In this document: positions 13,606-60,329 of the stretch, one piece after another
Layout of the letters: the number at the start of each line of letters is the position of its first letter
How positions within the stretch are numbered: position 1 is the stretch's first letter
From: Utricularia gibba
Taxonomy: Eukaryota; Streptophyta; Magnoliopsida; Lamiales; Lentibulariaceae
Assembly (NCBI GenBank): GCA_002189035.1
Contig: NEEC01000012.1
Coordinates: 1,116,001-1,180,000 of the forward strand
Direction of reading: 5' to 3'
Length of the DNA: 64,000 nucleotides
The notes under the pieces: model-generated
What the model was told of the DNA's origin: nothing
Seen by the model: only the letters and a program-made list of their open reading frames with translations
Database searches by the model: none
Translations under genes and position numbers: made by a program

Positions 13606-14770
<1,165 letters not shown>

Positions 14771-25407: not shown

Positions 25408-25408
25408 T

Positions 25409-26781
25409 CCATAAATGGAAATTTCTCAATGTCATTGCAAAAATAGAAATTTTGTTATCAAATAAATTTATAATCCCTAATCTACACAAAATAAAAATTT
25501 AGAAAACTTATATAGTGAATATCGGGGTTGATTACAAAGAGCTTGTGCTTGCTAAGTCTTTTAGTAAATGCATAATTCGAAATAAAAGTTATCTTAATCT
25601 AAGCTCGGATCAACAGTGGTAAACAAGTTCGGTAAACAAGATCATGTTTCAATGCGAAAGGTAACAAGTACTTGTTTTAACTCAAAATAATACGAAGATG
25701 CCTTAAGGATCTGCAGGTGGTGTCATGCTAAGGTGCCTAATTTAATTTACCATGTTCCAACACTTACAACTTCAAATAACCCAAGTCTACCCAGATCATT
25801 CATCATATTTTCGGCTGAATTAGTCCCCATTATCATAACCCACATTGCAATTAGGTCTACCCTTATGTAAATCATATAAAACTAGGTCTACTAGGTTCTA
25901 CCCCGGACTAACACCTACTGCACCCGTCTTGATTTGTTGATCTATCTCTAAACCAAGCATCTTAGTTGTGAAACTACTTATTCCTCTCCTTAGGTCTACC
26001 CATGAATTGATAGGAACAAGAGCTAAGAAATGAACATAAATTTCATTATCAACCCTAAGCACACACCACCATATTTCACCTTAAGGCATCCCTAAGGCTT
26101 TAGCTACTCATATTTTGAAGGTAAAACATGATAACATTCACATAAAGCAACGAAAATGTCAAGAACATCGTGAAAGAGTTGGTTGCATAAACTGAAAAAC
26201 ATCAACAAATGAAAATAAAGCAGTAAGAGTTCTGGTTTCCGTATGCTACTGTTCCTGGGCCGGAACTATAGCGCTAGACTGGGCTCTGATGCTATTCTTG
26301 AGGATGAAGTTCTTCTACTCTCCTGGTTGAGTGCTCGTCGTGTTGGGGGAGAAGCCCCTCCTCGGGTTTGCCCGTCTACTCTTCCTTCTCCCTTCTCCAA
26401 AAATATCTTCATATCTTTTTACCATTTTTCAAAATCAGTCTACTATTTCTGACATCTGTACTATTCCTGGCCTAAGCCTGTAGACTATAGGCGATTGAAT
26501 AGTGCATTATGTATCCTCTTTTAATGCTGCCCATTCTTCCAAATCTTCACATGCACGAAATTCATGTCTCCTTCCTGATTTTTGAACGTTGATGCTGGAG
26601 TAGAAAAAAATGTTAATAACATGGGATGGGCTAAATCCTGTGATTTAGCCCATTAACACATAAAAAAACATTATGTCCTAAAATTTGGTAAAAATACTAA
26701 AAGATATAAGATAAACACTTAAAACATGATTCAAAAACATAATTTTCTTATTCTAATAATAGGAAAATTCGTATGTTATCA
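25409..26781 (-). mobile_element. 3' LTR copy C (TGATAAC family), full length
   Basis: Minus strand begins TGATAACATACG at 26781 and ends near 25409, about 1373 bp, the same length as copies E and K. It contains the family landmarks GGGTAGACCTAA, GATCAACCCCG-type and ATAAATTTATTTGAT sequence and the conserved hairpin at 26626-26653. Immediately upstream (plus-side 26782-26850) is GGACTTGAGGACAAGTCTAG (minus strand), the same leader that precedes copy J. So C and J look like 3' LTRs still joined to internal sequence, not solo LTRs. Confidence 0.8.
26626..26653 (-). repeat. Conserved hairpin in LTR copy C
   Basis: Arms ATGGGCTAAATC (26626-26637) and GATTTAGCCCAT (26642-26653), loop CTGT. Equivalent hairpins lie in copies J and K with compensating changes. 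Confidence 0.9.
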
Positions 26782-27690
26782 CACTATGCTACAAAGACAC
26801 TAGACTTGTCCTCAAGTCCAAACTAAGACTAATAAAATCCTGTTTTCGAAAATTTTCATGATAGACATGAATGACCATGTTCAGATTTCAGATGCATGAA
26901 CCATAGGTGTACTTGTGTGCAAAATAGGTAACACTTCAACATGCATGAATAGATTATTCTTGGAGAGTGCTTTCAAAGATTAAAACAATGAATTAACATA
27001 TTCAAAGCAACCAAAAGATTGTGATTCTCAACTCGGTTTTTTCGTTTCTTGCATCTATCCCTCTCTTTTTTTTTGATATATATGAGATAGCAAATGAACA
27101 AACATTTCAAAATCAATCTAGACATAATTTCAAGACCTCTCTTAATACAAAGAGTGTTGGCCAAGTACTCTCACCTTATGAATCCAGGTCAACTTCCACT
27201 CCTCTAAACAAATTCATCCTGTCTTATTCATTCACTTCTCAACGAGTCTACACACGCTTTTCAATTGTGCGTTGCTTTTTAGACTCGGGTCTCATTGCTT
27301 TTCAAATGATGATGCTTTTCTTGACCCTTATTCTCTCTTTTTTTTTCATCAGCAATCCTTGTAGCAATGAAATATATCAACTCATGGAAACAAATCTAGA
27401 TTGTACTCTTTAGGTTCCTCTAATCATGCTTGCACTCACATAACAAAATAATTGGGATTCATGCTCACAAGGTTTCAGAAGGCTTCAAACAAAGCTCGTG
27501 CATCCTAATCATCACAAGGCTATCATATCCCATGATTGAATTATTCGAAACGGGATTTGGAGTATCAAGTAAAAACACATTCTACAAAAACAAACAAATA
27601 ACTCCTAGCATAGAATTAGAGACATAAATGGTCCAAAGTGGATGGACTCAAATTGTGTGTAAGAAAACCTGAATAAAAAAAAATAGACAA
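26782..27690 (-). pseudogene. 3' internal non-coding region of a Gypsy (Athila-like) element
   Basis: On the minus strand this joins LTR C and matches the sequence upstream of LTR J. Both have the GGACTTGAG(G/A)ACAAGTCT leader next to the LTR and the TGCTTGGCCAACACTCT-type block (minus strand of 27140-27165; plus strand of 44478-44500). No open frame is convincing; it is the untranslated 3' part of the element. Confidence 0.55.
27613..27674. repeat. 62-bp direct repeat, copy 1
   Basis: From GAATTAGAGACATAAATGG to GAAAACCTGAAT. It is repeated at 28941-29002 with a single base difference. Confidence 0.95.
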
Positions 27691-27700
27691 ACAGCGCTTG

Positions 27701-28836
27701 TGATAACACCATTTTTATGGTATTTTTATATATGTTTTTAAGTGTGTTTTGTAAGGTTAAATGTTGCTTAGGGTGCTAAAATGTCTTCTTTTGCGTATTT
27801 GGACTATTGAAATATGTTTATTGTGAAAATAGCCAAAACCTCTAATATTTCGTCTAATCTGTGTTTTAAATCATACCAGGGTAAGAGCTAGTATTGCAAT
27901 AGCGTACTTTCCAAATTGACAAGCCAGAAGGGACAAGAAAAGCTATGTAAAAGCCACCTTTTGTCGAAAGTAGCCACTCTTCTAAGAGTATAAGATTTGG
28001 AGCAAAGATTTCCCTTCTAAAAGCCTGAGGAAAAGATGACGCTACCCTTACTTTTAAGCTGCAAAAGGGGAAAAAGAAGAGAGAGAGGAGAGGGCGGACA
28101 CTGTGCACATAGAGTGCACAAAGGGATGAATAGGAGCGAGTGGGAGCAAGGAGAACTACTTTTCTCCGGCAGATATATGATCAAGAGCAAACACTAGACA
28201 CTTCATTTTCTATTTTCTGCACTTATATTTCGTTGACAAACTAGCTGTTGTTTCCTTCTGCGCTTTCATGCTTTCAGTTACGTTTCGGTGCCTTATTGTG
28301 AACGGAAAATTGTCTGTAGACCTTGCTTTAACTTATAAACATGTTTCTGTTTAAGATCTTCACGTTTGGTTTTAAGCTTAATATGCTTTTTACATTTCCT
28401 GCGCACACATACTCTGTTTTCGCACACACTAACTCTATTTTCAAGCGTTTCAAAGCTAGGTTAAGCCTATGGGCTCTCTTGAGTAATACAAGAGACAGAC
28501 CATGTCGTAAAACCTAGCCAAATTACTTTTATTTTATGTTTTCTGCACCTTCACGTTAATTTCAGTGCTCCTTCAACCCTTCAACTAGTTTATTTGAATT
28601 ACTGTTATTTTAGATCTTACCCGCGTTAGAACTAAATCCCAGAAAACCCCTTGTTTCCAGTAAATGCAACGAACTTCAAGAAATTACAATCATTCCCTGT
28701 GAATTCGATCTTTGCTTGTCACACTACATTAATTCATGTGATTTGTGTAATAGAATAGCTAGGTTTATAAATTTCTTTTGATGCGTTGAATGTGCTAGGT
28801 CGTGACATTTAGCAATCTCATTTCCTACGTTCATCA
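27701..28836 (+). mobile_element. LTR copy D (diverged TGATAAC-type)
   Basis: Starts TGATAACACCATTTTTATGG and ends CCTACGTTCATCA, 1136 bp. Its 3' landmarks resemble the main family (TTTATAAATTTCTTTTGATGCG; CGTGACATTTAGCAATCTCA) but are clearly diverged, so it is a related subfamily. It contains a small palindrome, TGTGCAC-ATAGA-GTGCACA, at 28102-28120. Five-base flanks are GCTTG and GGTTC, not a convincing duplication. Confidence 0.65.
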
Positions 28837-28940
28837 GGTTCAGAAACACTAGTCTATTGTTATTATATTATAATGTGATGTTATTCTTTATTTTGATATT
28901 TCAATATTTAGATTTTATGAAAACTGTAGTTAAAATGCAT

Positions 28941-29002
28941 GAATTAAAGACATAAATGGTCCAAAGTGGATGGACTCAAATTGTGTGTAAGAAAACCTGA
29001 AT
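28941..29002. repeat. 62-bp direct repeat, copy 2
   Basis: 61 of 62 bases match 27613-27674. The two copies are 1328 bp apart and bracket LTR D. Confidence 0.95.
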
Positions 29003-30158
29003 CAGCCCAATTTTGTATTACTCTGGTACCCAAGTGGGCATAATGCTATATTGTATTTGTACCGGCCTAGTCCAAGCAACGCACAATCTAAACATTGTGT
29101 GAGAATTTTGTGGGAAAAAAATGGAAGCTCAAGTTCTAGTGGGAAACTGAAATAGGAAAGAGAATGTAGAAAGAAAGAGTGTGATGATGAGGGGAAAGAA
29201 TTCCATAGGGGAGAGGGATTCCAGCATGGGGCTGGAAGAGATTAAAGATCAAAACTTTAAGGGAAGATGGTTACAATGATTTGAACATCGAAAACCTAAA
29301 GAAGAAAAGCAAACAACCAAGTATAAGTACTAGACTCTTAATACTTTGCACTTGTCAGAAAAACAAGAGCATACTGAGGGAAACAAAGGAAATAATCAAA
29401 ACATACATGTTTGAAGATGAAAACCAATCAAAAAATTTCAGAACTTTTTTTATTGCTTTCATTATTTAGACGTATCAACTTTGAAACAGCTTATTTCAAT
29501 GCATTTATTCTGCCTCATTATGCTTATTTACCATTATCATTAAAATTGCATTAACTTGGAAATGTGTTTACCAACATTTAATCAAAACATGTTTTACTAA
29601 AAAAAAGAATACTTAGCAAATTTTGGTACGTGATTTTCCTAATTGGGGTCTCTGCTTTTATTTGTGAATTTCATCTAAAATAACTTATTTAAATATTGAA
29701 GTACCGGTTAACATCTTGTCAAATGCTGTGTAGTTTAGCTTATTCATAAGATTTACGGTTGAAAGCCCATTTTTTCTTTTACAAGTCAATTTGGACTTAT
29801 TGTTACTACATTTATTTTTTAATAGAATATTTGTAGGATATTTATTCAGTATATAAATATTTTGATGGAGAAATATTTTTAGACCCATGGAAACTAGAGA
29901 AATTTCCATCCAATCAATCAGTAGAAAAGAATCCTTTCAGATAGACCTTTGTGGCTCCATTGATTCCTAGATCAACATGCTAAGAGAAACTCCTATTGAA
30001 GTTCACTATCAATCTTTAGGTAATTATTATGAGATTTATGGAGGAAATTTGAGAGTAAGAAGAATACACCAATAAATTCTCTTTTAAACATTGGAGACAT
30101 TGTTGGTCACATTTTTCTTTATCAAGAAGTTGAAGAAGCCATGTGGGGTTTTGTGAGG
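29003..30158. other. Anonymous stretch
   Basis: AT-rich with purine-rich patches (29110-29260). No recognisable gene or repeat. Confidence 0.4.
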
Positions 30159-31546
30159 CCTCTTGATAACACATATTTCATTAGTGTTTTAAGTTATAAA
30201 ATTGATATGTTTAATGATAAAATTAGGTTTTTTAATTATAATTTTTAATATTTTTTTAATTATAGTATTATTTGTTTTTTTATGCATAATATAAATTAAA
30301 TCCATGATTTAGTCTATATTTTGATTTCTAATATTCTTCCGAGTGTTAGCAGCAGCATTATGAATCACATTTAGCTAGTTTATGAGAATAATTCAAAGGG
30401 GCACAAGACATAAGGAGGAGACATTATTAATATTCAGCCCTCTATAGTCTTCAGGTTCAGGTCAGAAATAGTACAGATGTGAAGAATAGTGGATTGACTT
30501 TGGAAAATGAAAAAAATTTTATGTGAAGATATTTTAGGAGAGGGGAGGAGGAATATAATACAACCAGACCCTAAGAGGGGGAGGAAGAATACGAAAGAGG
30601 GAAGATGAAGGTGATTTCTCCAGAAGTAAGACTAAAGACTTGAAGAACAGCATTAGAGACTCAATTCAGCACTACTCTATCGAGCAGTGAACAGTAATAG
30701 ATCGCGAACAAAACACTCTACTTTATCTTTAGTTGCTGGATGTTTCGTTACTTTGACTGTTTTTTTACAATGTCTTTGTTATTCTCTTCAATTTATCTTA
30801 ATGATATTATGCTTTATCTTCTATACATGAATAGCTAAGCCTTAGGGAATGTCTTAAGGAATAGAATGGTGGTGTGAATTTAGGGTTAATAATGAAATTT
30901 ACATTTCTTTCTTGTTTCTATTATTCCATGGGTAGACCTAAGGAGGGGAACGATTAACTTCGCAACTAAGATGTTTGATTTAGAGGTAGATCAACAAATT
31001 AAGACATGAGCAGTTGGTATTAGTTCAAGGTAAAACCAGTAGAATCGGGTAGACCTAGTTTGATATATACTTTGCATGCGAATAGATCAATTTACGGGAT
31101 AGGTGATGATATTGAGGACTATATTTGCCAAAAACATGATGAATAACTTGGGTAGACCTAAATTATTTGGAGTTGTGAATATAGGAACATGGTAGATTAA
31201 GTTAGACATTTTAGCACCACATCACCTGCACACACTTAAGGCATTTTAGTATTACTTTGAATTAGAACCAGTATTTGTTACCTTTAGCATTGAGACGTGA
31301 TTGTTTTTTTTTTATTGAACTTGCTTACCACTTTTAGTCCGAGCTTAGATTAAGAACTACCATTATTCCGAATACTACATCTACTGAAACACTTAATAAG
31401 CACAAGCTCCTTGTGATAGACCTTCAAATTCCACTATACATTTTGTGTTTAATTTTTATTTTATAAGGATTAGGGCTTATAAATTTATTTGATACGAAGA
31501 TTTCTATTTTTGTAACGACATTAGAAAATTTTCATTTGTTACCTTT
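30159..31546 (+). mobile_element. Solo LTR E (TGATAAC family), full length
   Basis: The LTR is 30164-31541 (1378 bp), starting TGATAACACATATTTC. It carries CATGGGTAGACCTAAGGAGG, CGGGTAGACCTAG and ATAAATTTATTTGATACG and ends CATTTGTTA. Flanks are CCTCT (30159-30163) and CCTTT (31542-31546), a 4 of 5 match to a target duplication. No adjoining internal region is seen. Confidence 0.75.
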
Positions 31547-31844
31547 TCATGTATGTGATACCTAACTAGGCAAAGGAATCCTACGATGCTAGCAAGAATT
31601 AAGATCTCTCACGACATTTATTTATGGAGTTTTGCAATTTCAACGTATCAAGAAAAGCAAGTTTTTAAACAAAAAAATAAATTTTCGAATCATACTCAGC
31701 AAAATATGGAGATATTTATGACATAAAAGAATAACCCGAAATTTCACAATAAAATGATAGACATAACTACCATGAAACTACTTATTAGCGAGTTAATAGA
31801 TAATTTGTAATGGCATGCATCCCACATCCTGGACCAAGCAAATT

Positions 31845-32590
31845 CTCTAAGTTTTGAACAAGTTAAGGGTTTAGACCCTAAACAAGTTACCTCTGCATCC
31901 AATTCATTAGGATTTGATGATCTTTTAACAAAACTGTTAGTTCAATATATTGAAGAAAAAATTTTTATTTTGGAAACAACATCATCATCAAAATGTAAAT
32001 GTAGTATAAAGTTATGTCAATCTATTGAAATATGCTATGCCACAAGTGAATGTTTTCAAAAATAAATAAATCCGAATTGTAGGATGATTGACCCCCCCTT
32101 AATTCAGTTCGTATGAATCTTTTTCGGGAGCTGAGGTAAATGCATCACAAGCACATCAATTAGTAGATTTGGGAGGATTAATGTCGAGGACAAATGATTA
32201 ATTCACCCATCCAAATCAAATTAGGGGAAAGACTTTCTTTAACAAAGCATATCATTTATTGCCATACGGATGTCGAATGCTAAATATCATATGTGTAGAA
32301 TTGTTCAAGTATAGTTATACACTGAACCGATTTGGTACTATCCATGCTATTTCTTTGAGTCCTCCCGATGCAATGATACTAAAAAGAATTTTTATCCAAA
32401 CATTAAAGGGTCATAATGTATATATTGGCATCTGGGTGAATGGCCACCCAAAATCAAGACAATGGAATTAAATTTATGAATAAAATCATAAATCAAGAAA
32501 ATCTATCGTATTCAAACTCCTTTTACTTGAGTGCATCTTGATTCTATGGACTATGCTATGGCCCAAGGGATCTATAAGAAAAGTGACCAC
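31845..32590 (+). pseudogene. Degenerate coding remnant, unidentified
   Basis: A 73-codon stretch at 31845-32063 stays open (QANSLSFEQVKGLDPKQ, SLGFDDLLTKLLVQYIEE). After breaks, 32340-32470 reads LKRIFIQTLKGHNVYIGIWV and NGHPKSRQW, and 32485-32595 reads IYRIQTPFT, VHLDSMDYAMAQGIYKKSDH. Residue composition is protein-like and one frame hands over to the next, as expected for an old broken gene, probably from a retroelement. I do not recognise the family. Confidence 0.35.
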
Positions 32591-32595
32591 TTTTT

Positions 32596-33530
32596 TACCT
32601 AAATATATAATGTACTTTTTGAAATAAATACATGAATTTTCTTATTTTAAAAAAATAAATTTATTTAATTTTGAAGTTGTTGTTATGTATGTTGTTACAT
32701 TTATTTTATGAAGTAATGATTCTTAATTTTGAATGGCTATGATATAACGTGGTACCTTAGGAAAAAAGGGGAAATGTGTATAACCTTTGCCTAGGATTTG
32801 AGACTTATGTTAATGTATTTTTCTAATAAATCAAAATAGAGACAAAAGGAGAAAGGATTAATGCATGTAAGTTAAAAAATCCAACTTAGAAGTATACTTA
32901 ACCCTAAATCCAACCTTAGAAATATACCGAAAAGATGAGATGTGCTTTCATAGATAATATGTTTGGTGAGAGATAACAAGGATAGGGACATTGTCTTATT
33001 TGGCATACGCAATGGTATACCTAAGTATAAAATGGTTTGGAAAACTTAAGAAGATAAAAATAAAAAATCATAGAAATGGGTTGAGTTAGATTTCGACAAT
33101 GTTGGGTTAATAAACACTTTAGAGTTGTATGGTCATGAGTGAATGCATTCCCCTATAATCAATCCTTCACACACCCAAGTTTTCATTAAATGAAATTAAG
33201 TTTTAGTATTTATTGAATTGTTTTCTAAAATTTATTATATTATCATTGACACATTATTAATTTTAGTTAAGATTTAAAAATTGATTATAACAATCAGAAT
33301 GCATGAACTTTTACACCACAAGCATGTGTTCTTTGAGTTCAACCTTGAATGTACTTTACATTTTTTTCGATTTTTAGTTTGTATTCATTAAAGCTTTATA
33401 AATTTCTTTGATTAAAAATTTTTAATATTACAATGACTAGAAATTTTTGTATATCACATGAGAAGAATTGCGTATGTTTGGTTTTATAGATTCCTATTTT
33501 GTAAGATCTAAAAGCACTTTGGGTTATTTT
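32596..33530. other. Anonymous stretch
   Basis: AT-rich, no gene or repeat recognised. Confidence 0.4.
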
Positions 33531-33532
33531 TT

Positions 33533-33960
33533 TACTCTGGAAGTGGCATGGTTTGTTTTTCTTCAATGGGGCAATTTGTTATTGCTGAATCGATTGTAGA
33601 AGCTGAGTATTATGCTGCTTCTAAAGTCTATAACCAACCTCTTTGGCAGCACAAACTTCTCGGCAATTTGAACCTGAGGCACTATGGTCCAACAAATATT
33701 CAACACCGCTCAAATTCTGAAATTTCAGCCACTAAGAATCCTATTTTCTTCTGGCTGCATGAAGATTATTAATGCCAAATACCATGCTCTCAGTGAAGCT
33801 CAAAGTGGTGGATTTGTGAAAGGTAGTGTTCTGTTCAACTACAGAACAAGTTGCCAATTTACTCACCAAACCTTTGACCATTTCCAGATTTGAAGATCTC
33901 TTAGCGATTTGGAATTGAATATTCTCCACATTATTGAGGAGAAGAATGTAGAACATGTAT
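33533..33960 (+). pseudogene. Copia RNase H C-terminal fragment
   Basis: Copia RNase H landmarks occur across shifted frames: GSGMVCFSSMGQ (for SWCSKKQ), ESIVEAEYYAASKVYNQPLW (for STEAEYMAAS-A-IW), then KNPIFF-HED-NAKYHALSEA and TEQVANLLTKPLT-like sequence, ending near 33960. The upstream RT and integrase are absent. Sequence after it (TGTAGAACATGTATAATAAT at 33947 on) may be the start of its LTR, of which a second copy is not seen. Confidence 0.7.
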
Positions 33961-35049
33961 AATAATGTATTATAAGATGCAATCTTCGACTATTAGATTA
34001 GGGAAATTACTTAGCAGTTAGTGTGGATAAATAATAGTTAGTTATAAATTGATGTTTTCTAGTTGGTCACATACATGTAGCCTTATTAAAGGCATTATCC
34101 GTTATCAATAAAATGTGGTTAAAAAATGTATTACAGGATTTTTTTTGAAAGGTCTTTAGTTCTTTTGATGGATTCAATATCAATGAATTTAGAAAAGAGT
34201 TTTGAAGGTTAGAATGTATGTATAACAAAGGTTCTTGGAATTCTATATCCATTCTTAAGCTAAGTATAGGGTAAAGTCGTAAATTTATTGTAAATAAGAT
34301 TCAAAAGATGCTGATTTTGGAAGATGGAATGTCAAATGCTCTTTTTTACCCAGAGAACTAATCTGGGTGTCGCGAGTAGAATGAATGAGATTCACGTTGA
34401 AGTGGTTTGTTACCTAGCACTATTGTTGATAATAACTTGAATATCTTTGAATACTTAAAGTTTTGTATCTGAAACTAGTTATAAAGAAATGGCTAGAGTT
34501 TTAGCAAAAGTACCTCTATAGGGTTGAATCATTTGGTTGAAACAATTGAAAGAGAACATATTTAATAAATGAAAAATCCAGAATATTGTAAAATATTGGA
34601 TTTTTTTGAAAACAAAGAGTTTAATGCTCGTTGTGTGAAAGTTCATAAGTTATGATGTCGAATACAATTTTTAATTTTAACTACCATTTGCATAAATTAA
34701 ATAGTAATTGGGAAATGAGGAGGAGGAGGAGACGGTATGTATAAAAGATTCGAATTATAGAATGATGCAAATGTCCCTAATTACATCAAATTTACACTAA
34801 TGTTGTTAAATTCAACGTTCGACAGTTTTGACCAAATCATTTTTGATGAATCAGTATTGATTAGATCATAGATGCTATAGATTATCCCAATAAAGATAAT
34901 GGATAAAACATTAATAATTCCCCAATGATTTCAGTTTGGCCAATCACTAGATTAAGAGCAATAAGGGATCAAGAAACGCTTAAGAGCTTATAGGTCAATC
35001 AACCAAGCTATGAGGTGTTTGGCATGCCATTCAACATTATAAAAGTGGA
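33961..35049. other. Anonymous stretch
   Basis: Possibly the decayed LTR of the Copia fragment at its start (to about 34130). The rest shows no recognisable feature. Confidence 0.35.
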
Positions 35050-35425
35050 TTAACTTAATTAGAGAAGACCCATTATTACCCAAATACATTATTATTATTA
35101 CTTTTTCTCAAATAAGGCCCAACTCTTCATCTATATAAAAAGGTCTTACCGTTGTTTTGGACAACTTTGATTGTAATCACTTTTGAGAGCTATTATATTT
35201 TCTTGAGTTCTTGTGGAACTTAGACTTATTAAGCCTTGCTTGTGGTGTTTAGTGTGTAGTTTATCACTCTCAATTCCTTCCTTAATTATGTGAGTGTGGT
35301 ACCAATTTATAATTTGGGTTGTAAGGATATTTTCATTTTTTAGGTTCAACTTCTTTTATTTGAGGAATTGCTTCTTTTCATCTAATATCTGGTTTGCCAA
35401 TCACTTATTGATTGGAGCGTCGTAT
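35050..35425 (+). repeat. Probable LTR remnant with TATA box
   Basis: TATATAAAAAGG near 35132 is followed by a stretch typical of plant LTR R-U5 sequence, then by GTCGTATCAGGTATAAAT (about 35420), reminiscent of a primer-binding site after an LTR end. No second LTR or coding region is seen, so this is a tentative call. Confidence 0.35.
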
Positions 35426-44710: not shown

Positions 44711-44858
44711 TCAAATGACATGCTCACTTGCATTTCTGTAGCTCTTGCACCGAAATTTAGTCTTAGTTTTTATGTTCATCACTGATGCTAAAGGAATCGG
44801 TTTTCTGTTAGTCTTAGGTAGGACTTGAGAACAAGTCTGGTGTCGTTGTAGCATAGTG

Positions 44859-45778
44859 TGATAACACACAAATTTTCATGTTTTAGGATATGAAAAATCA
44901 TAAATTTTTAATTATGTTTAAGTGTTAATTTCATAGTTTTAAGTATTTTTATTTGATAAGGGAAAATATGATTGTTGGTGTATTAGTGGGCTAAATCAAA
45001 GGATTTAGCCCACCCCATGTCTAACCCGATTTCGGAATCTAGCAGCAACCCGAAAGTCAAGTAAGAAATCTAGGTGTCATGCAAGTCACCAGGCTGCAGG
45101 GGGCAATGAGTACACTGTTACGGTGGCAGTCTGCAAGTCAGGGCCATGAGCAGCAGATTTGTTAAAGAATGTACTTGCCTTGGAGGCGAGAGAAAGATGA
45201 GGAGGAGAGAGAGTCACAAAAAAAGAGGGGGGGAAACAAGCAGCATTTTCAGAACACACACGAGGGGTTTTCTCCCCCAACTCGAACACGAAGAATAGTG
45301 AAGGAGAAGGGGAATCGAGTAAACCTAGTTCTAGATGCTTTGCATGCGGGTAGACCTAATTGCAATGTTGGTGATGATATGGGGGACTAGCTTAATCGAA
45401 AATATGATGAATGATCTAGATAGACTTATGCTATTTGAAGTTATGAGTATAGGAACATGGTAAATTAAATTAGGCATCTTAGTGTCATTTTGAGTTAAAA
45501 CCAATACATGTTACCTTAGCGTTAAGACTTGATGTTGTTTACTTATTTTTTTTACTGAACATACTTGCCATTGCTAGTCCAAGTTTAAACTAAGGCTTAC
45601 CATTACTTTGAATTCTGCATCTGCTGAAATACATGACAAGTACAAGCTCCTTGTGATCGACCCCGAATTCCGCTGTACACTGTTTTTAATTTGTATTTTG
45701 TGATGGTTAGGGACTATAAATTTATTTGATACGGAAATTTGGTTTTAGTGCAACGACATGCTAAAATTACCGTTTATA
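44859..45778 (+). mobile_element. 3' LTR copy J (TGATAAC family, internally deleted)
   Basis: Starts TGATAACACACAAATTTTCA and ends ATTACCGTTTATAT. It is preceded by GGACTTGAGAACAAGTCTGG, the same leader that precedes LTR C, so it is a 3' LTR of the Athila-like remnant. It is about 450 bp shorter than C, E and K because a middle block before GTAGACCTAATTGCAATG is missing. It contains the conserved hairpin at 44986-45013. Confidence 0.8.
44986..45013 (+). repeat. Conserved hairpin in LTR copy J
   Basis: Arms GTGGGCTAAATC (44986-44997) and GATTTAGCCCAC (45002-45013), loop AAAG. Confidence 0.95.
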
Positions 45779-49717: not shown

Positions 49718-49854
49718 CATCTATAATTTTAGCAGATCTATTGAAGAGCAGTTTGCGAAACTTCAGCAATGTTCGTCTTTTAATTCGTTTTTCTTTTGCT
49801 GTTTGTGGATTTTTGTTTTTATTGTTTATGAGATTTCTTCAGCTATGTTCAAGA

Positions 49855-49975
49855 GGAATAGGAAGAAAAAGAATAGATGAAGAAGGAGAAAAAAAGAAGG
49901 AAAAAAGAAGAAGAAAAAGAATAAGGAGAAAAATAAGAAGAAAAAAGAGAATAAAAAGAAAAAAAAAAGTATTAC
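49855..49975 (+). repeat. Purine (AAG)-rich low-complexity tract
   Basis: About 120 bases, almost entirely A and G on the plus strand, with GAAGAAAAAG-like repeats. The Lys/Arg-rich open frame here is a product of composition. Confidence 0.85.
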
Positions 49976-50354
49976 AATTGTAAAAAGGTATTACATTTTA
50001 TTATTATATTGTGCTTACTACAAAATATAATTAAAAGATTGGATTTTTTTAGAATAGGTATATTAGTAATTTTTAAGAGGGTTATTTTATTACCAATCCG
50101 TTGAAAATATACATACCCGGACTTTCAGATTTTTACTCTGTCACATCTATCAACGTACAATTGAAAATCATTAGTCGATTAGCATAGATCAATTGTAGTT
50201 AATTAATTGGATTTTTACTCTTATAAATTCACATACTATAATTTTAAAACCCTAGAAAACCATGATCCAATTCAATTGTGATTACGTGGAATTCATCCCA
50301 ATTCAATTTGAGGCCCGTTTAAGTTTTTGCAACACTGTTTTGTGAGAAGAGGTA

Positions 50355-50374
50355 GGGGGGGGGGGGGGGGGGGG
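50355..50374. repeat. G20 homopolymer
   Basis: Twenty consecutive G residues after GAGGTA, followed by CGAAATTTTAG. Confidence 0.95.
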
Positions 50375-50974
50375 CGAAATTTTAGATAAATTTTGTAAAA
50401 ATTTTGAAAATTGTAATTGAGTTTCACCTTCATTTTCTAGTTTCGCCCCCCTCCTCCGAGTCTAGCCCTACACAAAATCCTGGGTCCACCACTTTATACA
50501 ACCTTATTTATAACAGAAAGTAAACATGAAACTGGCTGTTGCATCAAGATAGCCGTCCGTGAACCATCAAAATATCTTTAACTGAATAACTCCCTGCGGC
50601 TTCTGTGCTGATGCACCCGTGGGTTCATGAGGTTTGATAGGAGGCCCGAACCGAGACTCTGTCTTTAGTTGTTTGCATCATTCGGACTGTATTGTTGTGG
50701 ATGCTCTATGCGACTGTTGGCCTTTATCCTCTTCTTCGTCTCCTATGGTTCGTTTGCTGTGGCAAATGGCCCGTTCAGAGACTCCCAGCGGCTCATTTCT
50801 TTCAAGTTTTCTCTCCTCTCAATTGGAGTTTTCTCCAGTTGGAAACCGGGGGTGTCTTGAAAGAACCGAAAGGTAGAATGGTTACCAATGTGTGCACTGG
50901 TTGTTATGGGATCAGGATTTTCATACTAGTTATACAGCTAGTGAGGGTTGGACGAATCAAAAGAGCAATGCACT

Positions 50975-51252
50975 GATTTGATAAAAAAACAGTTTTGATT
51001 GATGAATATTAGCACATTACCAGCAGCTATTCTTGTGACAAAAACCATAAAAGACTAACACAAACGAACAGAACTTAAAGACAACAGAAAAAATAACAGA
51101 AACCCGTAAGTAGGTGAGTGGACTTGTTCATGACACCATAATTTTCAAGGAGGCGGTTGAGGACTTGAAGCGTGGCTGACTAAGTCAAGAACTGACGTGG
51201 ATCATGTATTTATCACTGATATTGAGGCTTGCTGACTTCATATGATCCAACA
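50975..51252 (-). repeat. Copia LTR remnant next to an RNase H fragment
   Basis: Minus strand: the RNase H end is followed by AAGGGGGAG (purine tract, about 51258-51266) and then TGTTGGATCATATGAAGTCA from 51252, a typical PPT-LTR junction. The far end of the LTR is not defined (about 50975). Confidence 0.55.
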
Positions 51253-51655
51253 AACTCCCCCTTGAAGTCAGCACTACTCACAAGTCCAAGCTTGCTCCGG
51301 AACGCTGCAAATATACCAGCTGACAGAGGCTTGGTCAGCATATCCACAAGCTGCAATTCTTTGGTACAGTATTCAACACATATTTACTGATCCTTAAGCA
51401 ATTCTCTCATGGCATGATACTTGATAGAAATATGCTTGGTTCGACCATGAAACACAGGATCTTTGATCATAGCAATTGCACTTGAAGAATCACAATGAAG
51501 CTTAATTGCCACAGTCTGTTCCAAACCTAGATCTTTCAGCATTTTTCACAACCATACAGCATTGTTTGCTGCTAAGAAAGCAGCAATATATTCAGCTTCT
51601 GCTGTGGATTGAGCAACCAGGCTTTGTTTTTTGGAACTCCAGCTGATCATTGCAG
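51253..51655 (-). pseudogene. Copia RNase H fragment
   Basis: Minus strand reads SWSSKKQSLVAQSTAEAEYI, AAFLAANNAVWL, LHCDSSSAIAMIKDPVFHGR, TKHISIKYHAMRELL and LVDMLTKPL, the C-terminal half of Copia pol, with two stops. It breaks off at about 51655 with no upstream RT. It differs from both Copia elements further right, so it is a third, truncated element. Confidence 0.85.
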
Positions 51656-52463
51656 TCCAATGTGGAAAACATTGATAAACCTAAGCAGAACATTTGTGGC
51701 TACACCAATATAATAAAATATGCTTATTTAAGAATAACATACTTCCTAAAATAATTGGAATTCTCTCAACTTGTCAATGAACGAGTGTAATAAATGAGTA
51801 ACTTTAAGTAAATACACACACACATATACATAAGGTATTTGTGAGACATTGAATTGGGGTAGGTCACAATTCACTTCATTCCAAAAATGAGTTTGCCTAA
51901 TTATTTGGCCTACATTCACCTAAGTAGTTGTAAATCTGGATCCCACTCTTGAAGCAATAATCTACGAAATTTCTTCGTAGAAGATCCTTTAGCATTTACA
52001 AATGAATTCTTGTTCCACGCATGCATTGAAATTATATGATACTTTAAGTAGTTAGTGTTTGGTGAATCTATTCTAAAGAAGTATAAAGTATAAAAGGGGA
52101 AAAAAACAATTGGTCACTATAGTTCTAAATCATACATCCATATACTTTTTTTTTTCATACAACTAATTTCATTACAAAATTCATTTATTAAATTTGATAT
52201 GTAAAAATACTGTCATTCATGTCCTATGTCCTAGTTCAAAGGTTATGAATGTGAGAAGTAGAATCCCATAAAGTGACTAGAAGCGACCGTTTTAAAGGTA
52301 AGGAGAGAAATAATTGCCTAAAATAGTATGGAGTAGACTCTGGAGGATTGTTAGTTAATTAATTTAAAAAAGGTAAAATGATGCAATTTTCTGAATAAAA
52401 AATAAGATACGGATAATTTGTGTAATAATTAATGTCATACTTGGCAAATATATCAAGACGGCA
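51656..52463. other. Anonymous stretch, possible promoter of the exon at 52464
   Basis: No gene. AT-rich sequence upstream of a possible host first exon. Confidence 0.35.
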
Positions 52464-52589
52464 ATGGCTTGTCGATCTCTGTTTCTTCCCTCTTGTGCAT
52501 TTCGATTCCTCGCTTTCGTTTCCATTCTTGTATACTCACTTCTTTCGCTGCTTTTTGCTGTAAATTTAGAGGTTTTCACCACTGACTGG
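52464..52589 (+). CDS. Possible first exon of a host gene, cut by Copia insertion
   Basis: ATG at 52464 opens a 42-codon frame that ends exactly at the outer Copia LTR (52590). It begins MACRSLFLPSCAFRFLAFVS and continues ILVYSLLSLLF, then AVNLEVFTTD: a basic start, a long hydrophobic core and a polar end, which looks like a signal peptide or single membrane anchor. Base composition is less AT-rich than the flanks. No family is recognised. If real, the rest of the gene would lie beyond the right LTR outside the window. Confidence 0.35.
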
Positions 52590-52973
52590 TGTACAGAATA
52601 TGGCAACCTAATTCTGACTAGTAGCAACTAATACTCAACCTAAACATCCTAGAACCTGATCCCAACAATTAACAGCAAAAAAAATTTGAAGAAATGAAAA
52701 TTACACCAGATTTTTAGCATGGAAAACCTTGTACTAAAAACCATGGGTGCTCTACACACCAGGCATAAACCATCCACTAAATCACTGGTTTAAATGTCCA
52801 AACGAAATCAAAAACAGATTTCAAAACAAGCTCATAGGCTTATAAACATCAGAATGAATTCCCCTTTCAAGGTTTACAAATCAATGAAACCAGATGAATA
52901 CTTCCACAAAATGAGCACATAAGGTGGATTTAGTAGCTGACTTAGATGTGACCCCTTTTATAGTCAGCCTACA
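52590..52973 (-). mobile_element. 3' LTR of the outer (minus-strand) Copia element
   Basis: 384 bp. Minus strand starts TGTAGGCTGAC, has a TATA box (TATAAAAGG) 11 bases on, and ends CTGTACA. It matches the partial LTR at the right window edge (63856-64000): CTCAACCTAAACA, TAGAACCTGATCCCAACAAT, TTTTAGCATGGAAAA-CTTG. A purine tract (GGGTGAGAT) directly precedes it on the minus strand. Confidence 0.8.
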
Positions 52974-55795
52974 AATCTCACCCAATAGCTAAACTTCATA
53001 CGTCCTTCAAACTTGAGTATGAGACATCAATCCCATTTTGAGCAAACAGGATTGATGCTGAGTTGATGACAATAGTTTTATTAAAACATCCACTACATTC
53101 TCTTGAGTAGATACCTTTTTCAATTCAAGTTCATTGCCTTTCAAAACTTCTCTTATCCAATGCCACCTTTAATCAATGTGTTTTGTCATTGCATGAAATG
53201 CTGAATTCTTGCTAAGTTGAATAGCACTTTGACTATCACTTAACACTTATGGTTTTCCCATTAAGAATCCTGGTTCATCCAACAATCTGTCTATCCAAAG
53301 AGCTTCCTTAAATGCCTTAGTCAATCCCATATATTCAGATTCCATTGTAGATAATGCAACCATTTTCTATAGCTTAGAACTCCAAGTTACTGCTCCACCA
53401 GCCATAACAGTTATCATACCAATTGTAGATTTCCTGCTATCAAGATCTCCTACTTAGTTAGCATCTACATAAACCATAGGAACTATATTTTCTTTGCTGT
53501 AACATAACTTGAAGTTCTCGTTTCCCTTAAGATATGTGAGCAACCTCTTTGCTCCTTCCAAGTGTTGCTTTCCTGGATCAGACATGTATCGACTAACAAT
53601 GCTAGCAGCAAATCTGATATTTGGTCAAGTACAAGTTGTGAGATACATCGCTGAGCCAACAACCAGACGCATATGGTACCTTGGACATGTGTTCTCGTTC
53701 AAGATCTATTTTTGTTGACATAGTCTTATAGAATTTAAGGTGTGGAGGCAGAGGGCAAGAAACTGGTTTTTTTTCACTCATGTTGAACCTATTAAGAATA
53801 TGGTTAATATAGCTGGTTTCTGACAACGTAGGTAGATTCCTTGATTTGTCCTAGTAGATCTCTATTCCTAAAATTTTCTTAGGAGGTCCCAAATCTTTTG
53901 TGCAAAAATCACCAGCCATTTATTGCTTCAAATCATTGATCCTTTGCTTGTTTGGGCAGGCAACGAGTATATCATTGATATATAGTAATAGAAAAACAAA
54001 CTCTGCATGATTGAATCTCTTCCAATATGCAAAATGATTACCTAATGTTCTATGAAATTTATTTTGTGTCATAAACTCATCAAACTTCAAATACTAATAT
54101 CTTGGTGCCTTTTTTAATCCGCAGAGACTTTTCTCATACCCTTCAATCTGCTTCATATATATTTCTTCAGTTAGATCTCCATGAAGAAATGTAGTTTTAA
54201 TGTCTAGTTGCTTGAGTTCCCAATCATAATATGCTGTTAAAGTAAATATGATTCTAATAGTGGATAGCTTCATTATAGGATCAAAAATCTCTTGAAAGTC
54301 TATGCCTTCCTTTTATCGAACCACAATTCTAGCCTTGTGTGTAATTGATCCATCCAAGTGTGCTTTCATCTTAAACATCCATCTGCTATCAAGTGATTTT
54401 CTATCAACAAGGAGTGGTACCAAGTCATAGGAATTATTCTATCATATAGAATTCAGTTCCTCATCCATAGCTTCTTTCGACAATGCTTTATCTTTCATTT
54501 CCAGTGCTTCTTTTACCAACTCTTGTTCTCCTTTCTTAGAAATAGAGATATACTTATCTATAGTATATTTGGTTGATGGCGTCTTTAATCTGGTAGATCT
54601 TCTTAGAAGCTGACCATCATTACCGATTTCTACTAATGGTTCTCTATTTTCTATATTTCGAGCAGCACCATTCTCTAACAATTGATCTTCATCCTGCACA
54701 GGTAAAAGGGAGTTAGAAGCTGAATTTAAATGTAGCTTGATTACCTGATTTTTCTCAACAACAAGGATGTCATCAATGGTCTGATCCTTATAAAATCTAG
54801 CATCTGTAGAACTGAAAACCTTCTTTTTTCAATGCCCCAAAGCCTACATCCCATCTGATCTTCTCCACAGCCAAGCAATATACACAATATTGTTCTTTCA
54901 TCCAATGTCTATCTATTTTCTTTCAGAATATGAGCATAGGCTCTACACCCAAATACCTTGGTTTCCTTCCTATCCAGATTTCTTAAGGAATGTAAAACTT
55001 CAAAGGTGTTTTTGGAGATCTGTTTGATAAAAAACATGTGGTTTTCAAAGCTTCTCCCTCAAAAAATTTAGGCAGCTTAGCAGTCCTCAACATGCATCTT
55101 ACTTTGTTCATAAACCTTTCTCCATTTGCATTATATACTGGAGTCTTTAGTGTTGTTATTTTCTTGATTCCTTCAGTTTTGCTGTAGTTTTCAAACTTAG
55201 TTGAACAATATTCATCACCGTTATGAGACTTGAATATTTTTAGTCTTTTGTTTGTTTGTCTTTCGAGCAGATCTTGAAGCTCTCTGAAGTGCTGAGATAC
55301 ATCACTTTTTTTTTCCATTAATGTAACCCAAGACTTTATTGAAGCATCATCAATGAAAGTGACATGAAATCTTTTTTCCCCTACTAATGCAACTTCAACT
55401 AGGCCTCTCACGTCAAAAACATCACTTTAACAGTTCTTCACTTTTCTTAAAAACATTTTTAGCTCCTATTCTATAATCTTTCCCTGCTATGCAATTTTCA
55501 CATATGATTTTAGGAGGTATCTCTTTTTCAATTAGATTATGCTGTTCTAGAAATCTCATTCTTTGCTATAGAGGTGTCCTAGTCTCTTTTGCCACAGAAT
55601 ATGACTAGTTTCTATGTAGCTAGTGAGATTCAAATCAGATGGATCTAACTTAACTGCTATTCTATACGAGGTTCCATTTAGCTCTCCTTTGGCCACAACT
55701 GTGGATGCTTTGACTAGTTTTCATATGTTATTTCCAAAGGACCTGATATATCCTGCTTTATCTAGGTGATTTACTAACATCAAAGTTAATCTTAT
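52974..55795 (-). pseudogene. Outer Copia pol: integrase, RT and RNase H (broken)
   Basis: Minus strand, read right to left. Integrase core remnant at 54983-55411 (FHVTFIDDASIKSWVTLME, LKIFKSHNGDEYCSTKFENY, YNANGERFMNKVRCM); the family's D,D,E positions are partly kept but the frame is broken on both sides. Linker with RRSTRLKTPSTKY at 54590-54620. RT near 53950-54380 (FQEIFDPIMKLSTIRII, ELKQLDIKTTFLHGDLTEEI, CGLKKAPR, LLLYINDILVACP with the YVDD motif changed to YIND). Degraded RNase H to about 53000. Many stops and frameshifts show this is an old copy. The gag half lies at 62715-63840, on the other side of the inserted younger Copia. Confidence 0.85.
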
Positions 55796-56160
55796 TGAAA
55801 TAAATGGTCATCTGAGTGATAAGGAAGAATGAAGAGATAAGGCTGATTGGAGTAATAAGGAGGCTGACCATATTATGTTGGAATGTGCTGATCATCTAAT
55901 GATTCATGCTATCCCTCCTATACACGATGAAGTTGAAAGATGCCATCTCTATCCAAGAAGATGAGGGTTACTTAATGCAAAGATCACAACGGCACCAACA
56001 ATTAGGAGATTATACTTAGTCTTCTCCAATATTTTAGGAAATAGTTTAGGACCCTTAACTAACGTTAACCATCTTTTTCTATTTAAGTTGTATCATTGTA
56101 CGCTCCTGGTGTGAAGAAATCAATTTGCTTCTTATCCGGTTGTCATCCATCGTCTTCCTA
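55796..56160 (+). mobile_element. 5' LTR of the inner, young Copia element
   Basis: 365 bp from TGAAATAAATGGTCA to GTCTTCCTA. It differs from the 3' LTR (62350-62714, also 365 bp) at about 12 positions by eye, roughly 3%. It contains ATGTTGGAATGTGCT and TTTCTATTTAAGTTGTATCA. Confidence 0.9.
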
Positions 56161-56161
56161 T

Positions 56162-56173
56162 TGGTATCAGAGC
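56162..56173 (+). promoter_or_regulatory. Primer-binding site, initiator Met-tRNA type
   Basis: TGGTATCAGAGC two bases after the 5' LTR. This is complementary to the 3' end of plant initiator methionine tRNA, the usual primer for Copia elements. Confidence 0.95.
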
Positions 56174-56252
56174 AAGCGGCTGTCATCCTTCAGCCGTCCT
56201 TTTCTCTTTCCTCTCACATTCACGCTTCCGCACATCCTTCCTTCCCTCCACC

Positions 56253-58952
56253 ATGGCAACTGGAAATGCTATTAATGTGTCAAACTTCATCACCGTCAAA
56301 CTAACCAGCAGCAATTACCCGCTCTGGAAAGAAATGGCTATTGGGCTTGCAGATAGCCAAGGTCTCTCCGGCCATCTAACCGGTGAGACAACACCACCAC
56401 CAGAATTTGATCTCCAACCAGGAGTGCAGGATTCATCTACACCAGCAAACCCATCTACAGAATTCATAAAGTGGAAACAATCAGACCGTCTCTTGCGTAG
56501 CTGGCTCTTAGGTACAATTTTTGAAGAATCATGGCCGCTGGTTATCGGTTGTGAAACCGCCGCCAATCTTTGGTCTGCTCTTCGAGATGCATATGCCAAA
56601 AAATCTGAGGAGCGTCATTATACCGTGAGGTATCAATTCGCTCAAAACCGAAAACGCGCAGATCAAAACCTGGATGAATATCTCCGTAAATTTAAGTCCA
56701 TCTGTGACCAATTAGCTGCTATTGAAGACCCAGTCGCTGAAGATGAGAAGGTTTATTTCCTTCTCACAAGTCTTGGATCTGGCTACGAGGCGTTCACCAC
56801 TTCCATGCTCAAATATCCACGTCCCTCGTTTAGGGATTTAATCTCACAACTGCAAAGTTTTGAGATGCGAAAACAAATCAATGAAGACATTGAACGGCAG
56901 TACACCTCACTCTCTTCCCCTATGGCATATCAAACCCAATACAAGAGTGCACCGTCAACAGCTCACTTTACCTCTGACGGTCGTGGGTTTCAAGCACAAC
57001 GCAGCCAATTCCCTCAACAACAACAACAACAACCTCTTGCAATGACTCATCAACAGCCTCGCACTCAATCTCGCCAAGGACGTGCACCCCCACCCCCACC
57101 AGGAAAACGTCAGATGACACCATTTGAAAGAGATCTCTATAAAAATGAAGTCTGTCAAATCTGCAATGTGACAGGTCACATTGCCAAAATCTGCTGGAAA
57201 CTCCCAGGTCCCCAAGCTGAGCCAAAGACTGATGCAATTCCACAAACCCTGGCAAACCTGACTCTCGACAACTCCCTCACCGAAACTGAGTGGATTGCAG
57301 ACACTGGTGCTACCAATCACATGGCAGGTACAAAAGAAGTTTTTATTGATCTTCAATCTTATACAGGTCATGATGGAGTTAAAGTTGGTGATGGCACATC
57401 ACTACCCATTACGGGTATCGGTACATCTAAACTCACACAGGGAACATCCACTATGCCATTAAAAAATGTATTATTTGTACCAAAACTAACAAAAAATCTC
57501 CTTTCTGTTGCACAGATGACAACACAAGAACCTGTTAATTGTGAGTTTACTAATTTTGGTTTTTTTGTCAAGGATCGAGCAACAGGTCTTCCCAAGTTGA
57601 CCGGCCATCGCACGGGTGATTTATATGTAGTGAATCATTCACATGAAGCCTTCTTTTCATATCGTTTTCAGTCTTCCACACCAGACATATGGCATCAACG
57701 TCTTGGGCACCCCCAGGATTCCATGGTGCCAATTCTTAAAAATAAAGGCTTGATTACAGTTATTAAACCAAATCAGCCTTCCTTCTGTGATAGTTGTCAA
57801 TTTGGAAAAATGTCAGAACTTCCATTTGCTGAGTCCGAAAATATTACTACTATTCCTTTTGAAAAACTTTACTGTGATCTTTGGGGCCCTTCACCTGTCA
57901 TTTCTCGAAATGGGTTTCGTTATTATGCTTGTTTCGTTGATGCATATTCACACTTTATGTGGTTTTTCCCATTACGAAAAAAAGTGATTTTGTGGATACC
58001 TTTCTTCAATTTGAAACCTATATAGCTCGACAGTTTGACAAGACCATTAAAGTGCTTCAAACCGACAATGGTGGAGAATTTGTCAATGAATGTCTCAAAT
58101 CTCATTTTTTAAAAACCGGTATGATTCATCAACTCTCTTGTCCGTACACTCATGAACAGATGGGAATGGTAGAGCGACGACATAGAACGATCAGAGAACA
58201 CGGAATGACCCTACTCTTCCATGGCGGATTACCACTATCCCTGTGGGTTGAAGCCTTTGCTACAGCCGTTCATCTTCAAAATAGACTACCATCTCCTTCA
58301 CTCAAAAGGGAGTCTCCTTACTCAATCCTATATAATCGCAGCCCCGATTATTCAATATTACGTGTTTTTGGTTCGAAATGCTTTCCGTATTTATGGGATA
58401 GTAGGAAGAATAAATTTTCTCCAAAAACTGCATTATGTGTTTTTATTGGATATAGTGAAAGCCACAAAGGATACAAATGTTATGATCCACAAACAAAAAA
58501 AATACACATTTCAAGACATGTCATTTTTTATGAAAAATCGTTTCCCTTTAAGCATCTTGTAGTACCGACATGCTGTCCCCTGAAAAGGTCTCTAAACTGT
58601 TTGCACTGTGGATGCAGGAAACACTAGGTTCAAAGACTTCTCAAGAACGTGCTCCTACACTAGAACACAACGTTGCAACCACCGGAGAGTTATCACCGAT
58701 AACTTCATCAATGACTTCTACTCTACCTACAATAATTCAGACTGAATCGGTGGCCCTTCATCCCGTTGATTCAGAGCCGAGTCAGAATGATAATTCAGAA
58801 TGATGAGCATCAACACCAGACATAGAGTCTCCAACTGGGTTAACAAATGACACCATTACTTCGAGCGCCACCAGCCATGATTGCTTGAGTGACCCATGTG
58901 AGGTGGGGACACTCTCCCTTACACCCGTCAGAGTAGAAGATGGAGTCCATAT
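56253..58952 (+). pseudogene. Inner Copia gag-protease-integrase (first part of polyprotein)
   Basis: Start ATG at 56253 (MATGNAINVSNFITVKLTSS). Gag domain to about residue 220 (NYPLWKEMAIGLADSQGLSG). Zinc knuckle CQICNVTGHIAKIC (CX2CX4HX4C) at about 57151. Protease WIADTGATNHMAG near 57291. Pre-integrase IWHQRLGHP with CDSCQFGK. Integrase YCDLWGPSPVISRNGFRYYA, LQTDNGGEFVN and MVERRHRTIREHG hold all three catalytic acids. Defects: one A is missing from an A8 run at about 57978 (frame lost after FPLRKK); a second frame change near 58565; stops at 58801. The coding sequence then continues, readable, up to 58952, where a solo LTR interrupts it. Confidence 0.95.
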
Positions 58953-60329
58953 TTATAACACAAAATAGCTATATTTTATTATGATTTGAGTTAGATAAAT
59001 ATGGGTTTTAATGCTTTAGTGGTGTTTATGTTAATCTTATTTGATTATGTTAAAAAGTGGACTAAATCCTTTGATTTAGTCCACAACTTTTGTTACTAAT
59101 GTTTTAGTAAGTTTAGCAGGGAAATCAGCAGAAAATCAGACGTGCAAACATGTGGAACAAGTGAAGAAGGGCGCAAAATCCGGAGAAGAACAAAGAGCAA
59201 TGTTTTGCTGCTACCGTAGTCTGCAAGTTCAGAACAGGAACAGTACTGACAGTCAGAAACAATGCAATGGAGTGAAGCAAAAGAAAAGGAAATTAATTTG
59301 AAAAAAGAAGGAGAGCGTAAAGAAGCGAGGAGCGAGGGGGACGCAAAGGGGGGTCTTCTTCTCCAACAGGAAAAACACCAACCAGAAGGGGGAAGGGAGG
59401 CCTCCATCATCAAGAACAGCACCAGAGCCCAGTCTAGCGCTACTGCTCCGGGCTGTGAACAGTAGATAGCGGGCGGAAAAACATTATCTATTTGCTTTCC
59501 GTTTTTCTGAACATTTCAAGTTTCTGAATTTGAATTGTTACAATGTTTCTGCCATTTTGGCCAGCTTATGTGAATGAAATTGTGTTTTATTTCCAAAGCA
59601 TGAGTGACTAGAGTCTTAGGGATGCCTTAAGGTGAAGGGGTGTGGTGTGTGCTTAGGGTTAATGATGAAATTTATGTGTATTCCTTAACTCTTGTTTCTA
59701 GCAAACCATGGGTAGACCTAATGAGGGAAACAAGTAGTTTCACAATTTAGAAGCTTGGTATAGAAGTAGACCAAAAAACCAAGATGGGAGCAGTCGGTGT
59801 TAGTCTAGAATAGAACCAGTAGAACCGGGTAGACCTAGTTGTATATACCTTGCATGCGGGTAGACCTAATTGCAATGTTGGTTATGATATTGGGGACTAG
59901 CTTAAGCGAAAAAAAAAGATGAATGACCTGGGTAGACCTAGGTTATTCGAAGTTGTGAGTGTAGGAAGATAGCAAATTAAGTTAGGAACCTTAGTATGGC
60001 ACCACCCGTAGATCCTTAAGGCGTCCTCGTATTAGTCTGAGTCAAAACCAGTACCTGTTACCTTAGCGTAGAAACCTGATATTGCTTATCTACCTTGTTT
60101 ACTGAACTTGTTTACCTCTGTTGGTCCGAGCTTAGACTAAGACTTCCTGTTATCTCGAATTATGCATTTACTAAAACACTTAGCAAGCACAAGCTCTTAG
60201 TGATCGACCCCGACATCCACTATACAAGTTTTCCAAATTTGTATTTTGTGTAGATTAGGGATTATAAATTTATTTGATACGGATTTTCTATTTTTATTAC
60301 AACGATATTAGGAAAATTTCCGTTTATCA
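58953..60329 (+). mobile_element. Solo LTR K (TGATAAC family) nested in the inner Copia
   Basis: 1377 bp, starts TTATAACACAAAATAG (family start TGATAAC with a changed base) and ends TTTCCGTTTATCA. It carries the landmarks CATGGGTAGACCTAATGAGG, CGGGTAGACCTAG, GTGATCGACCCCGACA and ATAAATTTATTTGATACGG. Flanks are CCATA(T) and CCATG, an imperfect 5-bp duplication. It separates the integrase and RT halves of the Copia polyprotein, whose frame can be read across once it is ignored. Contains the conserved hairpin at 59057-59084. Confidence 0.9.
59057..59084 (+). repeat. Conserved hairpin in LTR copy K
   Basis: Arms GTGGACTAAATC (59057-59068) and GATTTAGTCCAC (59073-59084), loop CTTT. Compared with copy J, one base pair is changed on both sides and the loop is the reverse complement. 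Confidence 0.95.

Follow-up and report, generated by a model that had tools for sequence, protein, structure and literature searches.

Why do copies of one long terminal repeat (LTR) family carry, at the same place, a short hairpin whose loop reads in one sense in some copies and in the opposite sense in others? The question arises from a 64,000-nt stretch of the Utricularia gibba contig NEEC01000012.1 (the window, to which all coordinates refer). Three hairpins, J (44986..45013, + strand), K (59057..59084, + strand) and C (26626..26653, − strand), each consist of 12 perfect pairs and a 4-nt loop. The arms are GTGGGCTAAATC / GATTTAGCCCAC in J, GTGGACTAAATC / GATTTAGTCCAC in K and ATGGGCTAAATC / GATTTAGCCCAT in C. 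J has the loop AAAG, the flipped state, and K has CTTT, the common state. The LTR of C lies on the − strand, so its loop is given in LTR sense; it is ACAG, which is AAAG-like and one base off. The initial annotation of this DNA had described these hairpins, and they are present with the arms and loops it gave: the loops of J and K are exact reverse complements, and two arm pairs are changed on both sides, pair 1 between C and J and pair 5 between K and J. It left an either/or, in which selection keeps a structure or hairpin-templated repair keeps the arms equal and flips the loop. We find that the loop inverts repeatedly, mainly within perfect arms, that the flip is not detectably inherited, and that the two LTRs of one element carry opposite loops. 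We favor, with a probability of about 0.68, an explanation in which the palindrome is constrained in the transposing lineage and its spacer is inverted, most likely by template switching, within the perfect arms of inserted copies.

A 24-nt degenerate hairpin pattern (up to three mismatches) has three matches in the window and none in 100 window shuffles. The window also contains other perfect hairpins with arms of at least 10, many of them AT repeats; the point of interest is that one LTR family repeats the hairpin at a constant position, not a hairpin per se. Genome-wide (100,091,633 bases), the core CTAAATC-N4-GATTTAG is present at 278 places. Most copies were gathered via sequence outside the hairpin, in four sets based on the upstream flank of J (best 40 of 333 candidates), a conserved downstream part (best 40 of 482 candidates), the LTR start (first 100 of 232 places, adding 71 new copies) and the left flank of K (best 40 of 123). 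Whole-LTR queries based on flipped copies contributed 14 further copies. Another 12 were picked by the hairpin pattern, some of them by loop, and are flagged. Rows without a reference match (L059, L074), with short flanks (L053, L058, L076, L182) or identical to another (L003, which is L066) were dropped. The tree comprises 207 copies, the three window copies included, and the hairpin was left out of its alignment. The 28-nt hairpin region is kept in 151 of the 178 tree copies from the four sets gathered outside the hairpin. Loops were classed in 173 of the 207 copies; 30 of the remaining 34 are without a 28-nt hairpin and four have an unclassed loop.

The loop is CTTT-like in 142 of the 173 classed copies and AAAG-like in the other 31. 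Based on the four sets gathered outside the hairpin, which are the least selected, 125 are CTTT-like and 22 of 147 AAAG-like. Both ratios are far from the nearly equal orientations that the initial annotation had predicted. Exact patterns searched genome-wide gave 54 copies with the J-type right flank (36 CTTT, 13 AAAG, 5 others) and 58 K-type copies (52 CTTT, 3 AAAG, 3 others).

The AAAG state requires 29 changes on the hairpin-free tree, and the mean after shuffling is 28.8 (P(≤) = 0.652). Arm positions do follow the tree, with 7 changes versus 15.6 shuffled at position 1 and 6 versus 42.1 at position 5. Because the tree is weak inside subfamilies, we repeated the loop test without it. The nearest neighbor of the 31 AAAG copies is a CTTT copy in 25 cases and an AAAG copy in 6 (shuffled mean 5.4, P = 0.447). 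At flank distances of up to 4%, 14 of 77 pairs are discordant and none has AAAG on both sides. Discordance rises from 0.15 to 0.25 over the distances tried, against a random expectation of 0.29, and opposite loops occur between copies that differ by only 2.5% in their flanks. Between close relatives the spacer can be the exact reverse complement with the arms unchanged, which is the mark of spacer inversion. Only two nodes consist of AAAG copies alone (support 72 and 0). Internal branches sum to 4.1 and terminal branches to 14.7 (each branch capped at 0.3), so that a uniform rate over branches would yield, by an arithmetic estimate, about 8 inherited flips, and few or none are seen. This scarcity fits flipping in resting copies.

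Perfect arms are found in 24 of 31 flipped copies versus 58 of 142 unflipped copies (P = 2.7e-4). With the 12 flagged copies left out, the proportions are 21/28 and 52/133 (P = 6.9e-4), and in an earlier 162-copy set the association held when stratified by terminal branch (P = 1e-4). Terminal branches have similar medians in flipped (0.045) and unflipped (0.047) copies. By subfamily, again without flagged copies, perfect arms occur in 17/22 flipped versus 31/89 unflipped J copies, and in 2/2 versus 1/9 C copies. The association was found and tested in the same single dataset. Using the decay seen in unflipped copies, the number of perfect-arm copies expected among the 31 flipped ones is 14.0 if loops flip at birth, 19.4 (standard deviation 2.5) if a flip, whenever it occurs, requires perfect arms, and 20.8 if the flip resets the arms, the last assuming uniform time. 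The 24 observed disfavor flips at birth. By this count, a requirement for perfect arms and a repair of the arms are inseparable.

Once inserted, the arms change mostly on one side. At least one mismatched pair is present in 91 of the 173 28-nt hairpins. Within subfamilies (161 copies, flagged ones left out), we counted 138 one-sided arm changes and three that affect both sides, one of them paired and the other two unpaired; chance alone would give 2.7 two-sided changes. The single paired change is in an unflipped copy (L051), and there is none in the 28 flipped copies examined. The expectation that paired arm changes would outnumber unpaired ones therefore fails within subfamilies. C to T or G to A accounts for 92 of the 138 one-sided changes, an outcome that is expected in methylated repeats. 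Restoration of an arm to its old base would leave no visible trace. From the original either/or, the flip of the loop survives, being recurrent and tied to perfect arms; a repair that keeps the arms equal is not evident in inserted copies, given their mismatches and one-sided changes. The selection half and the flip half may apply at different stages.

A second hairpin in the same LTRs serves as an internal control. It consists of GCTACTGTTC, a very variable 8-nt loop and GAACAGTAGC, in most copies lies ~500–550 nt into the LTR, and could be found in 66 of the 73 long copies. Only 1 of 63 of its 8-nt loops is apparently inverted (L045, by a distance rule), versus 15 of 59 for the first hairpin (P = 7e-5). 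Restricting the count to second hairpins with a perfect inner 10 bp gives 0 of 19 flipped; the 15 of 59 of the first hairpin come from the same set of copies. The predicted DNA stability of the second hairpin (−9.3 to −10.0 kcal/mol) is only slightly lower than that of the first (−10.8 to −12.3 kcal/mol), and loop length is thus the likelier cause of its silence.

The two LTRs of one element provide a direct comparison. L208 and L225 (the latter being copy L027) have the target-site duplication (TSD) GTTTT on their outer sides, and their loops, AAGG and CCTT, are reverse complements. Such TSDs were compared by eye across LTR pairs. L208 is preceded by GTTTT and followed by TATCA and then AATTGGCGCCGTTGCCGGGGA, read as a putative primer binding site; L225 is preceded by internal sequence and followed by GTTTT. 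The arms are perfect in L208 and have three mismatched pairs in L027. Barring reverse transcription errors, the two LTRs should have matched at insertion. The nearest tree neighbor of L208, L130, also has the loop CCTT. As partner and neighbor agree, it is the loop of L208 itself that was inverted, and no AAAG was imported. For the flipped copies L008, L001, L151 and L146, no partner LTR was found nearby among the best 40 of 207 to 337 candidates each. Two other candidate pairs were rejected. L014 and L020 (C460, ~8 kb apart, sisters at 81% support) carry AAAG and CTTT, and both have internal sequence upstream, which does not suit a simple pair. L233 and L234, which have different loops, are 77% similar, and a separate TSD flanks L234.

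The evidence for constraint comes from the comparison of subfamilies (40 of 149 J copies, 46 K and 6 C, in 28-column windows). J–K identity is 0.77 in the hairpin, whereas in other windows its median is 0.46 and its maximum 0.70, and K–C identity is 0.76 in the hairpin and 0.75 in the best outside window. The arms are about as similar between J and K (0.84, 0.79) as among J copies themselves (0.84, 0.80). Differences that separate subfamilies are paired and fall at pairs 1 and 5. A diverged relative, an LTR that starts at 30164, adds a possible third: pair 3 of its decayed hairpin (30291..30317, + strand, read by eye) is A:T, in contrast to the G:C of J, K and C. This hairpin has 12-nt arms, a 3-nt loop (CAT) and two non-Watson–Crick pairs (pairs 4 and 6), and is 127 nt from its LTR start, the same offset as in J. 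Judged from these alignments, the pattern fits selection on the palindrome before insertion, i.e., in the active lineage. The few paired differences cannot separate an RNA structure from a dimer binding site. Our guess is that the palindrome either folds into a hairpin within the 3′ part of the genomic RNA or serves as such a binding site.

In the mechanism that we propose, a 28-bp palindrome (12-bp arms, 4-nt spacer) in the 5′ part of the LTR (U3), ~127 nt from its start, would be constrained in lineages that transpose and would drift freely once inserted. As long as the arms are perfect, they would occasionally permit inversion of the spacer. By intermolecular template switching, a polymerase would cross to the complementary strand within one arm and return within the opposite one, and after this double switch only the loop would have changed its sense. 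Cutting of a cruciform followed by religation would yield an identical product. We infer template switching in chromosomal DNA after insertion in preference to cruciform cutting or an event of reverse transcription.

Several observations weigh against this explanation. The K subfamily alone does not have the perfect-arm association (2/4 flipped versus 20/35 unflipped, flagged copies left out). The presence of any arm mismatch is without tree signal (55 changes versus 58.2 shuffled). A second pair with matching TSDs, L223/L220 (copies L098/L030), is concordant, with loops TTTT and CTTT. For J–C, the best outside window (0.80) exceeds the hairpin (0.77). The tree is weak within subfamilies (the first tree left 122 of its 190 inner branches open), and the inherited controls, arm positions 1 and 5, therefore mostly test deep branches. 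All copies are from a single genome. Finally, the flipped share is flat over quintiles of terminal branch length (5/35, 6/34, 9/35, 7/34 and 4/35), and a constant share has the best log-likelihood (−81.34, versus −84.40 for flips limited by perfect arms and −87.54 for a clock). The flat share argues against a simple clock, with the proviso that branch length is a poor measure of age and makes the dating of flips too noisy. Over a 13-fold increase in mean branch length, mismatches per unflipped copy move only from 0.70 and 0.46 to 1.39.

This flat share is the main support for the rival that survives best, although we still regard it as unlikely: a flip in each transposition cycle, during reverse transcription or in linear complementary DNA, that affects ~15–18% of new copies and whose flipped daughters leave no progeny. 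It accounts for a share that is independent of terminal branch length, and for the lack of visible inheritance (29 changes for 31 copies). However, it predicts the 14.0 perfect-arm copies calculated above, not 24, and allows the discordant LTR pair without predicting it. A bolder version, that about one in six new copies flips during retrotransposition and that the sense of the loop is a functional state whose switch silences flipped daughters, appears somewhat less plausible still.

Selection alone would keep an RNA or DNA structure, with compensatory pair changes and the two loops as functional alleles. The two-sided subfamily differences at pairs 1, 5 and possibly 3 speak for it, as does a palindrome that is more alike across subfamilies than a typical flank window. 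Yet it leaves unexplained a flipped state without phylogenetic signal and the ratio of 138 one-sided changes to one paired change within subfamilies, and we consider it very unlikely. Even more improbable is that two old loop alleles were shuffled between copies by gene conversion or template exchange. Many copies reside in one genome, and gene conversion between LTRs is known in general. But all six K-type flipped copies retain the K pair 5 on both sides, which would limit imported tracts to at most 18 nt, and AAGG in L208 is the exact inverse of the CCTT in its partner and nearest neighbor. An assembly or library artefact at the palindrome is scarcely credible: inverted-repeat artefacts are known in sequencing libraries, but 22 of 147 copies are flipped in the least selected sets and 0 of 19 second hairpins with perfect inner arms.

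The process of loop inversion is already known from yeast genes, ribosomal RNA (rRNA) and plastomes; what is new is its location in an LTR and the many replicates. In coding genes of Saccharomyces cerevisiae, as described in PMC8604942, the spacers of inverted repeats are inverted by intermolecular template switching, reversibly and recurrently, and only with arms longer than 9 bp. The arms were already perfect in 9 of 10 genes; arm homogenization accompanies some events and is lacking in 9 of 10 genes. The LTR hairpin resembles that system in its short perfect inverted repeats, arms above 9 bp, inverted spacers of a few bases and mostly unchanged arms. In contrast to the ten yeast events, which are in different genes, the LTR family has 29 parsimony changes at one homologous hairpin. 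For rRNA, PMC8794818 gives 69 inversions of the loop by itself and 6 that come with a compensatory change; they are rare and the loops are conserved, and even the strongest evidence that template switching maintains short stems is called circumstantial there. That paper likewise takes loop inversion as the footprint of a strand switch in RNA hairpins, and affected loops typically have four bases. Unlike those loops, the LTR copies are apparently free of selection after insertion, 15–18% are flipped, and there is no linked compensatory change. Stem-loop flip-flop in plastomes, according to PMC6824564, involves five to seven changes on the tree at six of 11 sites. There too, hairpin loops are inverted, stems are unchanged and each site changes several times on the tree. 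Whereas the plastid sites are single loci, the LTR hairpin is nuclear and multicopy, which made the association with perfect arms testable. Literature searches on inversions or hairpins together with LTRs or transposable elements returned no LTR hairpin flip among the matches listed, which is weak evidence of absence, and a paper search with the letters of the hairpin and of the LTR start found none.

The family is an LTR retrotransposon with solo and paired LTRs, based on its TG...CA ends, 5-bp TSDs and a primer-binding-like stretch read by eye. LTRs ending in GTTTATCA are 1.2 to 1.5 kb long (long loci). An exact 5-bp TSD at the GTTTATCA or TTTTATCA end flanks one LTR in 10 of 39 long loci, which are solo LTRs, and two further TSDs match by eye across LTR pairs. 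According to the TSDs of solo LTRs, the LTR begins at TGATA. The stretch ATTGGCGCCGTTGCCGGGGA after the LTR presumably resembles the Ty3 Tat/Athila-like lineage. A small inverted repeat resembling GACTTGGGGACAAGTC lies ~25 nt before the 3′ LTR start (e.g., 44811-44858); this 25-nt gap would be unusual if the repeat holds the polypurine tract. Six copies with shortened or half-lost hairpins (L099, L108, L132, L150, L158 and L185) have remains of an AAAG-like rather than a CTTT-like loop. Flips and deletions may share one event, a suggestion made post hoc.

The LTR of J extends over 44859..45777 (+ strand), starting with TGATAACAC; its end is approximate and was set by eye after other copies that end in GTTTATCA. 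Internal sequence lies upstream, and it is thus a 3′ LTR. The open reading frame (ORF) upstream of J matched no Pfam families. The LTR of K (58950..60329, + strand) has an approximate start and ends in ...GTTTATCA, and the LTR of C (25408..26781, − strand) starts with TGATAACAT at 26781 and has an approximate end, the boundaries of both being inferred by eye. The LTR of K is located between ORFs with copia gag, GAG-pre-integrase and SH3 matches (56253-58627) and an RVT_2 ORF (61139-62011), and appears to be inserted in a Ty1/copia element (56253-62011). A further match, in 60274-61026, falls below the cut-off. Elsewhere in the window are another perfect hairpin with 12-bp arms and a 4-nt loop (16910-16937, GTTCTTCCTCCT TGAG AGGAGGAAGAAC), a hairpin built of telomere-like repeat units (1694-1728, AGGGTTTAGGG ... 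CCCTAAACCCT) and an ORF with a polyprenyl synthetase domain (13612-14286). Rfam gave no match within the window at gathering scores.

Since loops are under selection, the role of template switching in making or keeping hairpins is difficult to test. The outcome here is mixed: inversion is frequent, tied to perfect arms and not visibly inherited, and compensatory arm changes by the same route were not seen. For the family itself, the four-base loop is unsuitable as a subfamily marker, and four-base differences of this kind are probably single events. The 173 classed copies, of 207 aligned, are apparently free of selection after insertion and offer a flip that can be counted, a second hairpin as internal control and a few LTR pairs that can be dated. 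Thus, the LTR copies are natural replicates for studying what is most likely a copying error at a perfect hairpin.

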